DNA of 28,174 nt from a virus, in the IMG/VR virus record IMGVR_UViG_3300042691_002536, positions 1-28,174 of that record. One strand, written 5' to 3'. A program made the translations under genes and the position numbers. Shown here in pieces: positions 3,303 through 5,715 of this stretch (within the stretch, counting starts at the first letter, position 1; each line of letters begins with the position of its first letter). Below the pieces are notes generated by a model. It had not been told where the DNA came from. It did no database searches and saw nothing but the letters and a program-made list of their open reading frames with translations.

Positions 3303-3331
3303 CCAAAACAAAACCCGCCGGAGCGGGTTTT
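3303..3331 (-). terminator. Intrinsic terminator of the tmRNA unit
   Basis: AAAACCCGC / GCGGGTTTT with loop CGGA (3310-3331) is a 9-bp stem. On the minus strand it is followed by GTTTTGG. Flanking A and T runs make it potentially bidirectional. It lies about 20 nt below the last tmRNA hairpin. Confidence 0.85.
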
Positions 3332-3349
3332 GGGAATTTTCTGTTTATT

Positions 3350-3655
3350 GGTATTCCTACCTCAGCGAGCCGATCAAGCGGCCAATGCGTATGAACTGTC
3401 GTTTGCAGTTACTTGTTTTGCTAGAATTACGTTCTTCGCCTGTCGTGCTGTCCACTCTGTTACTCTTTGCCCTGTCGAAGCCATGACTGGCCCATCATAA
3501 AGAAACTGGGTAGAAACTAAAATCATCCGGAACTAACGGAACATATTCTTCTGGAAGATCTAAGATATTCATACAATTTCCTTATGGTGGACCAGGCGGG
3601 AGTCGAACCCGCGTCCAGAACACTTTTCTCTTTGCTTCATACAGCAATAAAATTA
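3350..3655 (-). ncRNA. ssrA: Circularly permuted two-piece tmRNA; tag ANDSSYALAA
   Basis: On the minus strand the acceptor half comes first. It has T-arm GCGGG-TTCGACT-CCCGC (3612-3596), acceptor strand CTGGTCC (3595-3589), discriminator A and encoded CCA (ending 3585). After a spacer of about 90 nt the other half begins with GGGCCAG (3493-3487), which pairs with CTGGTCC over 7 bp with one G-U. It continues TCATGGCTTCGACAGGG, matching the TGG-TTCGAC signature at tmRNA 5' ends. A short P2 helix can be drawn between AGAGTA (3466-3461) and TGTTCT (3622-3617). The tag frame, GCA AAC GAC AGT TCA TAC GCA TTG GCC GCT TGA (3406-3374), encodes ANDSSYALAA-stop. GGCCG/CGGCT can enclose the stop as P5, and GGTA-GGAA-TACC (3361-3350) follows. 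The RNA should rescue stalled ribosomes and tag products for ClpXP-type proteases. Exact mature ends are not visible. Confidence 0.9.
3495..3572 (-). CDS. 25-aa ORF filling the tmRNA intervening segment
   Basis: ATG at 3572 follows AAGGA with a 7-nt spacing. The frame runs 25 codons to TGA at 3497-3495, one nucleotide before the predicted 5' end of the coding piece. The product begins MNILDLPEEYVPLVPDDF and is acidic and hydrophobic, with no family I recognise. It lies wholly inside the spacer that must be cut out to mature the two tmRNA pieces, so translation and RNA processing would compete. The ribosome site and exact fit argue against chance, but a 25-codon ORF alone is weak evidence. Confidence 0.4.
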   Translation of the reverse strand: MNILDLPEEYVPLVPDDFSFYPVSL

Positions 3656-3659
3656 CTTA

Positions 3660-3992
3660 TTACTCTCTGACCAATACTAGTCTATCACAGTTGCAATATG
3701 CATCAAACCGAACTTCTTCTCTGTATCCATATGGCACTGAAGTATATGCAGGTGGCACATAATGATAGTTGGGTTGTGGTGCGTAATAGACTGTAGGGGG
3801 CGAATAGTATCTTGGCTGTGACAGCCCGTAGCCGATGGCACCGCCAATGATTACAGGTGCTACCCAACGGTAATGATTGTGATGATGGTGGTGCTGAACA
3901 TGCGGGCGGTGATGATGACGGTAATGTCTATCATTGGCCCAAGCACTTGATCCAACCAACGTCAACGCTACTGCTAAAATTAACTTTTTCAT
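3660..3992 (-). CDS. Secreted histidine- and tyrosine-rich small protein
   Basis: 110 aa. The ATG at 3992 has a strong site (AAGGAGG). Residues 1-19 (MKKLILAVALTLVGSSAWA) are a clear Sec signal peptide with an AWA cleavage site. The mature part opens with a His cluster (RHYRHHHRPHVQHHHHHNHYRW), then a small-residue hydrophobic stretch WVAPVIIGGAIGYGLS, then a Pro/Tyr-rich region and a C-terminal CNC. Similar periplasmic proteins with His or PXPV-like regions are common in betaproteobacteria, so host acquisition is plausible. A metal-binding or envelope-modifying role is inferred from composition only. It is the first gene after a sigma70 promoter and precedes the tmRNA acceptor piece, whose T-arm starts about 50 nt below its stop. 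Confidence 0.75.
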   Translation of the reverse strand: MKKLILAVALTLVGSSAWANDRHYRHHHRPHVQHHHHHNHYRWVAPVIIGGAIGYGLSQPRYYSPPTVYYAPQPNYHYVPPAYTSVPYGYREEVRFDAYCNCDRLVLVRE

Positions 3993-4019: not shown

Positions 4020-4048
4020 ATATTACTTGATCTTGTCGTCTGTGTCAA
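4020..4048 (-). promoter_or_regulatory. sigma70-type promoter of the secreted-protein/tmRNA unit
   Basis: Minus strand: perfect -35 TTGACA (4048-4043), 17-bp spacer, -10 TAATAT (4025-4020). The same -35/-10 pair precedes the primase gene. The predicted start near 4013 falls in the 10-bp palindrome TGTCCGGACA (4005-4014), leaving a leader of about 20 nt with AAGGAGG. Confidence 0.75.
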
Positions 4049-4050
4049 GA

Positions 4051-5715
4051 TCAAATTAACTTGATCAATCCAATTTGTGTTTGGTCCTTGTTGCCATAGG
4101 CAATATAATCGGGCCATACATCTTCGATAAAAAATCCATCAGCATCTACTGAGCCACTGCCCACAGTGACCATTAACGTCATGCCATTGGGGAAAAGATC
4201 ATTGCGCTTCCATGCTTCGGGTTCTGGGCCTGTGTTTCTTTCTTCTTCAGGCAACGATGTGTCAATCCAAGGTGTGTTGGTTTCGTCGCGTCCATTGGCT
4301 TCTGCTAGAAATTCATTGGTCTCAAATCTTGATAAACCTTTGTTAAACGAACCAGTAACTGTGGGTTTGCCATTGTTATCCAGCAATGGGCGTCTAATCC
4401 CATCAGTTCCTGCAGGTCCTAACAAAACTTCATAGATGTAAAATTCTTGTTGCTGTCCTGGGGGCAAACTGAACAAATGACTGCGCCCGCGATAGAGTGT
4501 AATCTCAGGGTTGAGGTTTAGTGCTGTGGTTTTCTTTTTGGCACCTACGGGTCCAATCAACTGCTCACTGACATTGCCTTCCAGTGCCCAGCCAATGCGG
4601 GTAGGATCTTCATCAATGCCGTTGACCCATAGTATAGTAAAATTAACATCCGGTGGATTGGCATCTGCTCCTTCAAAAGGATCGCCGCCATCGGCGCTTC
4701 TGTCTCCTAAGATAACATTTTCTTCGTAGCCAACTAACCTTCCGCAATAGTCATACACAGGTTCTTGTCTGACAAACGTTGGATCAGCAGGTGTCAAGGC
4801 TTGAATTGCCAATGCATATAGTTCAGGGCCTAGTGTTGCTGGCCAAATATTTTCATGCGTGATACCATCAACTTTGACAGGATAACTGGCTGTTTGATTG
4901 ACCGATGAAACTATTTTTTGTGCCTGTTCAATGGCATCAGCCATTCTTGGAGAATCAGGTGGCGGATACTCGCTGGCTGAAACTTCCATGGCCGCAAGTG
5001 CTGCCGCTGGTGGTATGGCCGCGTATGCTGTGGCTGGTTCTCCAGGAACATAGGTTTTTCCTGTTCTAAGATTGTGCTTGTGTCTAAAGTCTGGAAACAA
5101 TTCTCTATTGACTTGTTTCTTGATGGCCTTGCTTACACCTTTGATACGGTTGGTAAACTGTTCAATTTGGTTACTGGGTATTTCGTCTAGTTTGCCAAGT
5201 TTGCGACTCAGTGAGCCCAAGATACTATCTGGTTTATAGGAGCCAGTGTTGATACCACCCTGAGCATCCAAACACAGTTGAGGTTTGGCAAGTCTTCCAA
5301 GGTCGCTGAGAATTGAGTTGGCCGCGCCAAACATGCTGTTGGTTACCTGGCCCAGAACATCAGGTATTTGTGGTGCCTTCATTGGCACCGGACACATGCC
5401 ACCCAATGACAACATTTTTTGTAAATCGGCAACAGCACCATTGACTCGCTTTAATACTTCGCCAACTCCCAAATGATCCTGGAATGCTTTTACTTCATCA
5501 CGTAATTCTTTTAGGGCATCTTTAAGGTCTGTTAGATTGGCCAGTCCTTGATCTTCTAGAATCTCATTGAGGTTGGCCTCAATACAAAGGAGGTTGCCTT
5601 TGAGCATGTTATCAATACCGCCAAACAAAATAGCACAAATGATATCTTTGATTGGTTTATTTAAAATGCCTTTGGTAGTGACTTTGACTCCAGGAATAAC
5701 AGGTATACTTGCCAT
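4051..5715 (-). CDS. Putative virion (baseplate-associated) protein
   Basis: 554 aa, no family firmly recognised. The N-terminus (GILNKPIKDIICAILFGGIDNMLKGNLLCIEANLNEIL) is helical and hydrophobic, followed by a coiled-coil-prone segment around residues 60-100. The central part is Pro/Ala-rich. The C-terminal 200 residues have a beta-rich character (PEITLYRGRSHLFSLPPGQQQEFYIYEVLLGPAGTDG). It is the last gene of a run that begins with a PAAR protein and includes an M15 peptidase, so assembly near the baseplate hub is inferred. It follows the peptidase gene by 10 nt. The ATG at 5715 has only a weak ribosome site. Confidence 0.6.
   Translation of the reverse strand: MASIPVIPGVKVTTKGILNKPIKDIICAILFGGIDNMLKGNLLCIEANLNEILEDQGLANLTDLKDALKELRDEVKAFQDHLGVGEVLKRVNGAVADLQKMLSLGGMCPVPMKAPQIPDVLGQVTNSMFGAANSILSDLGRLAKPQLCLDAQGGINTGSYKPDSILGSLSRKLGKLDEIPSNQIEQFTNRIKGVSKAIKKQVNRELFPDFRHKHNLRTGKTYVPGEPATAYAAIPPAAALAAMEVSASEYPPPDSPRMADAIEQAQKIVSSVNQTASYPVKVDGITHENIWPATLGPELYALAIQALTPADPTFVRQEPVYDYCGRLVGYEENVILGDRSADGGDPFEGADANPPDVNFTILWVNGIDEDPTRIGWALEGNVSEQLIGPVGAKKKTTALNLNPEITLYRGRSHLFSLPPGQQQEFYIYEVLLGPAGTDGIRRPLLDNNGKPTVTGSFNKGLSRFETNEFLAEANGRDETNTPWIDTSLPEEERNTGPEPEAWKRNDLFPNGMTLMVTVGSGSVDADGFFIEDVWPDYIAYGNKDQTQIGLIKLI

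Follow-up and report, generated by a model that had tools for sequence, protein, structure and literature searches.

Permuted tmRNA genes have so far been viewed as two RNA halves with a disposable spacer between them, and the locus described here raises the question of whether that spacer, when the gene is carried by a phage, has a role of its own. Our analysis indicates that the locus very likely comprises a beta-type, circularly permuted (two-piece) tmRNA gene, carried by a T4-like phage, whose intervening sequence (IVS) contains a protein gene. The window, by which we mean the whole 28,174-nucleotide stretch of DNA that was analysed, is a linear 28-kb virus record from IMG/VR. It encodes the T4-like replication proteins NrdA, NrdB, a DnaB-like helicase, and a UvsW-like helicase whose nearest relatives are in jumbo phages, e.g. 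Sinorhizobium phage Phosso, and the element that hosts the tmRNA is probably a jumbo phage of the T4-like type, in keeping with the preliminary description of the locus as a phage-encoded permuted tmRNA.

The precursor is encoded on the minus strand in the order 3' piece, IVS, 5' piece, and each element that had been proposed for the two swapped halves was recovered at its position (Table 1). A search with cmscan gave full-length matches to both RF04321 (tmRNA_permuted; 131.4 bits against a cut-off of 47, E 8e-26, 3646-3374) and RF01850 (beta_tmRNA; 125.7 bits against a cut-off of 84, E 3e-38), and ARAGORN returned tmRNA* with the tag ANDSSYALAA, identical to the tag read from the sequence beforehand. 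The 5' piece contains the acceptor 5' strand GGGCCAG, a D-loop-like segment (TGGCTTCGAC), the tag, and downstream structure, and the tag frame has an alanine resume codon, a hydrophobic C-terminus, and a stop. The acceptor stem formed between the halves spans 7 bp and includes the G3.U70 pair that is required for alanine charging; this pair is preserved in 157/157 of the distinct relatives gathered, and relatives also retain the acceptor pairing and a tag frame.

Table 1. Features of the permuted tmRNA locus in the window.
Feature	Position	Strand	Basis or remark
Sigma-70-like promoter, TTGACA-17-TAATAT	4020..4048	(-)	5' of the gene preceding the tmRNA
tmRNA 3' piece, including P2 strand	3585..3646	(-)	RF04321 match starts at 3646; mature 5' end presumed
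T-arm	3612-3596	(-)	Within 3' piece
Acceptor 3' strand, CUGGUCC	3589-3595	(-)	Within 3' piece
A73-CCA (ACCA)	3585-3588	(-)	End of 3' piece
IVS, CCA to G1, 91 nt	3494..3584	(-)	Presumably removed on maturation
Helix 5' strand, CAUAAGGAAAUUG, holds the Shine-Dalgarno sequence	3574..3586	(-)	MFE fold; end-swap pairing test
Shine-Dalgarno sequence of nested ORF, AAGGA	3579..3583	(-)	Inside IVS-closing helix
Nested ORF, MNILDLPEEYVPLVPDDFSFYPVSL then stop, 25 codons	3495..3572	(-)	Purifying selection relative to L165; L138 homolog
Helix 3' strand, CAGUUUCUUUAUG, codes last codons (..VSL) and most of the stop	3496..3508	(-)	MFE fold; end-swap pairing test
tmRNA 5' piece, G1 = 3493	3340..3493	(-)	RF match and ARAGORN; 3' end approximate
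Tag reading frame, ANDSSYALAA then stop	3374..3406	(-)	ARAGORN and coordinates
Intrinsic terminator	3309..3332	(-)	3' of tmRNA 5' piece

The promoter in Table 1 is a possible candidate for the whole unit and serves as a lead only, as such promoters were no more numerous in the window than in shuffles. Immediately 5' of the tmRNA, at 3660-3992 (-), lies a gene that is probably on one transcript with the tmRNA; its product is rich in His, Tyr and Pro, seems to carry a signal peptide, and has no Pfam match. In a related contig (L342), with 82% identity in the protein at window positions 4051-5715, the upstream neighbour gene has another gene and no tmRNA after it (downstream of 4771); judged from this contig, the tmRNA is optional at this site.

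The identification of a permuted tmRNA thus stands, while the preliminary account of the locus missed the ORF, led by a Shine-Dalgarno (SD) sequence, that lies between the halves. The window IVS reads UAAGGA AAUUGU AUG ... UUUAUGA U, and the UGA stop of the ORF (3495-3497) falls one base short of the 5' piece. Two homologs of the ORF were found besides the near-identical contig L117. One (L165) has the counterpart peptide MNILDLPEEYVPLIPDQFSFYPVSL and differs from the window ORF by 11 bases, of which synonymous changes affect 7 of 15.7 sites and non-synonymous changes 4 of 59.3 (pN/pS 0.15, Fisher p 0.001). The other, recovered by a degenerate-codon search, is a free-standing gene of another phage (L138), outside any tmRNA, with its own SD and stop (MNILDLPEEYVLFVPDEFSFY then stop), located ~250 nt 5' of a tmRNA whose IVS holds a different ORF; the additional PVSL of the window peptide, relative to this copy, derives from the helix strand. 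The coding capacity of the window ORF, and purifying selection on it, are well supported by these comparisons.

To place this ORF among its relatives, 157 distinct viral permuted tmRNAs with a closing helix were collected from IMG/VR, mostly as metagenome contigs, together with the isolate Melnitz. The shortest of their IVSs has 30 nt and the longest 478 nt, and RF04321 matched above its cut-off in each of the 17 slot loci that were tested. An ORF of at least 16 codons that starts just past the helix is present in 101/157, which is not a frequency because part of the set was picked by patterns that favour coding IVSs. In a sample of 83 distinct IVSs picked by T-arm sequence only, 25 carry ORFs, and 22 of these stop at the terminal UGA; shuffles that preserve the IVS ends gave a mean of 1.5 and a maximum of 6 such ORFs over 100 rounds. 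Most testable cargo pairs have pN/pS values of 0.15-0.4, for example L056/L167 (p 8e-10) and L302/L301 (p 7e-7), and a few pairs (L122/L187, L025/L197) gave no purifying signal. Some IVS ORFs have no SD, and the short ones among these (L061/L103/L110, L006/L063) are probably due to chance. A search of 84,980 bacterial species genomes for coding-type IVSs returned a single match, and this locus (L304) encodes a tmRNA of the usual one-piece form; the control is weak, as the pattern was derived from phage sequences.

The proteins encoded in these IVSs are diverse, falling into 51 clusters, 42 of which have at least one SD-bearing member. They include an IscU/NifU scaffold protein (L194; Pfam NifU_N, E 3e-55), a thioredoxin (L097; Pfam Thioredoxin, E 4e-21), a CxxC/HxC peptide of the L138 type, and many hydrophobic peptides of 22-24 aa, such as that of L008. 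The alpha-type tmRNAs of marine phages use the slot as well, for instance for a 78-aa membrane-like protein in L311/L316/L324. Three IVSs (L176, L178, L147) are two-gene cassettes; the second ORF of L178 has a homolog in L053, where it is the sole IVS ORF, and the 112-aa second ORF of L176 had been considered as an acetyltransferase from a likeness by eye, an assignment that we dropped, as it matched nothing in Pfam or PHROGs. The 5' pieces of L055 and L125 are identical over 165 nt and their cargoes are unrelated, and those of L073, with a non-coding IVS of 65 nt, and L097, with its thioredoxin in 272 nt, are 95% identical. Outside the tmRNA, at least 14 cargo families are represented by conventional phage genes, among them stand-alone counterparts of IscU (87% identical, in L015), thioredoxin (89%, L212), the L069 type (73%, L029), and the L133 type (78%, L349). 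In-slot copies often end in SL and a stop or in SLYD, as would be expected if the helix strand sets the C-terminus, whereas stand-alone copies end otherwise. We conclude from these sequence relationships that the IVS of phage tmRNAs, whether beta- or alpha-type, appears to be a slot in which genes can be exchanged.

Searches for close isolate relatives in INPHARED found none for the window tmRNA, with T-arm matches to tRNAs and unrelated tmRNAs only, and none for L097; the L194 query matched only in its IscU part and in short stretches. Intron families had no match in the window or the 17 slot loci, and there was no homing endonuclease among the identified cargoes, with NifU_N and Thioredoxin being the Pfam matches in a scan of cargoes from relatives of the window. 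Several loci depart from the common form in other ways. Several phage permuted tmRNAs (L097, L155, L067, L172, and others) have unusually long predicted tags of ~23-31 aa (e.g. ANADTFDFSAMSFTGNTVRGAANESRFALAA), which recur in many loci, the usual length of a tmRNA tag being 10 aa. A divergent permuted tmRNA (L218:2928-3403; T-loop GTGCGAAT, D-loop TTTAGATTTGAC) likewise has an IVS that encodes a thioredoxin, and here the stop falls immediately 5' of the 3' helix strand. At L123:6480-6876 the 5' piece is joined to a second T-arm half, followed by the start of a new IVS ORF; what appears to be a tandem array here more probably reflects recombination, or an assembly error, between TTCGAC motifs.

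It could be argued that the window holds an ordinary phage permuted tmRNA with a non-coding IVS, in which the ORF is fortuitous or a side effect of the helix sequence. A 25-codon ORF in a single sequence is weak evidence of coding, and 56/157 of the collected IVSs have no such ORF. This explanation nevertheless seems very unlikely to us, as it does not account for the pN/pS of 0.15 between the window and L165, the free-standing L138 homolog with its own SD and stop, the 22 terminal-UGA ORFs observed where 1.5 were expected, or the recognizable thioredoxin and IscU at the same place in relatives. It is extremely unlikely that the locus is instead a recent relic, a non-functional fragment of a host tmRNA acquired by the phage. 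In favour of a relic, the gene after the upstream neighbour is not a tmRNA in the relative with 82% identity in the neighbour protein. Against it, the window tmRNA is structurally complete, with the G3.U70 pair, a tag ending in ALAA, and a terminator, and the same architecture with intact tags recurs in many diverse phages.

The reading that we prefer, a protein gene nested in a tmRNA precursor, draws attention to how the IVS ends are built. In the predicted fold, a 13-bp helix of CAUAAGGAAAUUG and CAGUUUCUUUAUG prolongs the acceptor stem and buries the SD. Across 139 IVSs, coding and non-coding pooled, those positions of the IVS ends that vary can pair within the same IVS in 0.83-0.96 of sequences, compared with 0.43-0.64 when ends from different sequences are combined, and the IVS-closing helix is, by this comparative measure, conserved and covarying. 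Within the T-arm sample, the core of an SD is found in the helix 5' strand of 23/35 coding IVSs versus 4/49 non-coding ones (p 3e-8). Since the pairing is found in coding and non-coding IVSs alike and the SD tracks the ORFs, the helix would be a general part of these precursors, with its 5' strand adapted to serve as an SD in those that hold a gene. The sequestration of the SD in the folded precursor counts against the preferred reading: the median probability that the SD is unpaired is 0.01 in the full precursor, 0.57 in a nascent transcript that has reached only the beginning of the IVS, and 0.11 once the IVS is excised.

We infer that the IVS ORFs are translated around the time of tmRNA maturation, and the simplest reading of the folding predictions is one in which translation of the nascent transcript would be followed by helix closure, SD silencing, and processing. 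The ends of the IVS would pair with each other and prolong the acceptor stem, the purine-rich 5' strand of the helix would serve also as the SD, and the 3' strand, together with UGAU ahead of G1, would provide the last codons and the stop. Because the helix strands carry both SD and stop, a small gene could be swapped in the slot with the RNA ends held constant. Ribosomes would bind during transcription, before the SD is paired; once the 3' strand is synthesized, the helix would close, shutting off the SD and making the acceptor available for cleavage by RNase P and for processing at the 3' end, to yield the two-piece tmRNA. Removal of the IVS is to be expected, as known two-piece tmRNAs lose theirs (PMC11915505), and the mature tmRNA, once charged with alanine, would be expected to act with host SmpB in the rescue of stalled ribosomes.

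The timing of translation could also be reversed, with the protein made not on the nascent precursor but on the IVS after its excision. Cuts at CCA and G1 would free a mini-mRNA with a 5' SD and a 3' stop, so that protein output would follow maturation; the segment would begin UAAGGA.., ~12 nt ahead of the AUG, and finish ..UGAU, and predicted SD exposure does rise on excision, from a median of 0.01 to 0.11. The ends would still pair after excision, however, leaving the SD unpaired at that median of 0.11 and at 0.01 in the window family, and excision would leave those ORFs that stay open up to the junction without a stop; we regard this order of events as unlikely. Another reading is a feedback loop comparable to the regulation of arfA mRNA, in which cutting or trimming of the IVS would create a non-stop mRNA and its product would be tagged by the tmRNA of the same precursor. 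In 11 cargo families, 8 of them with an SD, no stop interrupts the frame, which reaches the GAU/GGG junction in phase, and homologous cargoes differ at just this point, being open in L086 and closed by a UGA stop in L189. The stop lies within the IVS in more families than this, and we consider such a loop quite unlikely. A broader scheme, in which the gene slots use the helix as start and stop signals, output is tied to maturation, and open frames give self-tagged non-stop mRNAs in a feedback loop, may be entertained as a tentative idea that is probably not correct in full. Translation from the nascent transcript remains the order that we favour.

The spacer of a phage tmRNA often appears to be a working, exchangeable site for protein genes, in which the same nucleotides would be shared by an RNA-processing helix and the start and stop signals of the ribosome. 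It would add small proteins to phage genomes, including that of the isolate Melnitz, that go unnoticed in automated annotation owing to their position within an RNA gene. It also raises the question of how translation and maturation of one precursor are reconciled, and offers a natural system for studying the origin of two-piece tmRNAs.

The permuted tmRNA part of the locus is not new, contrary to what the preliminary description implied, as phage cases have already been reported: two-piece tmRNAs are described for Methylophilales phage Melnitz, with 53 suggested cases among 402 tmRNA-bearing phages (Buchholz et al., 2022, PMC9004378), and RF04321 was built for the permuted form (PMC11915505). 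What appears to be new, on the comparisons made here, is the nested, exchangeable protein gene in the IVS, and no earlier report of protein genes in tmRNA IVSs was found in the open-access literature. Like the members of RF04321 and RF01850, these genes have the order 3' piece, IVS, 5' piece, the T-arm, the G3.U70 acceptor, and the ALAA tag end, but among the contents of permuted IVSs a survey of 97,179 tmRNA sequences names a repeat as well as a tRNA gene, with no mention of protein genes (PMC11915505), whereas the phage IVSs here often encode one or two proteins. Melnitz and related marine phages share with the window a phage-encoded two-piece tmRNA with an SD-led IVS ORF; unlike that of the window, the Melnitz tmRNA is alpha-type, and its ORF extends into the 5' piece. 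This ORF (L306:15985-16437, MZ577097 45984-46436; MFKWLSKTRLVVITRDYFRERNRKADAKIPKYLSGTRSVYD/GGELGSTGRNRKV then stop) is unannotated, was not reported by the authors (PMC9004378), and is retained in relatives with an 8-codon in-frame length difference. A glutamine riboswitch (RF01739) lies directly 3' of the tmRNA at L312:7891-7939, as reported for Melnitz, and is thus downstream of the tmRNA and outside the IVS, so that it was rejected as IVS cargo of Melnitz-type tmRNAs.

A protein gene inside a removed segment of an RNA gene, with its ribosome-binding site sequestered, is also found in the T4 intron endonucleases such as I-TevI, in which the site is buried in RNA structure (PMC2988022), and in tmRNA group I introns, the only place in tmRNA where the survey mentions homing endonuclease (LAGLIDADG) genes (PMC11915505). 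In contrast to those systems, there is no intron and no ligation here, the identified cargoes are thioredoxin and IscU, and the SD and stop would lie in a processing helix. The nearest precedent in kind is the IVS ORF of 23S rRNA (S23p, e.g. in Coxiella), which likewise occupies a segment cut from a structural RNA with no re-ligation and whose product in Coxiella is reportedly unlikely to be made (PMC4990558), a precedent that speaks against translation of the phage ORFs. The two differ in that the 23S rRNA IVS encodes one conserved protein, while the phage tmRNA IVS appears to accommodate many exchangeable phage genes.
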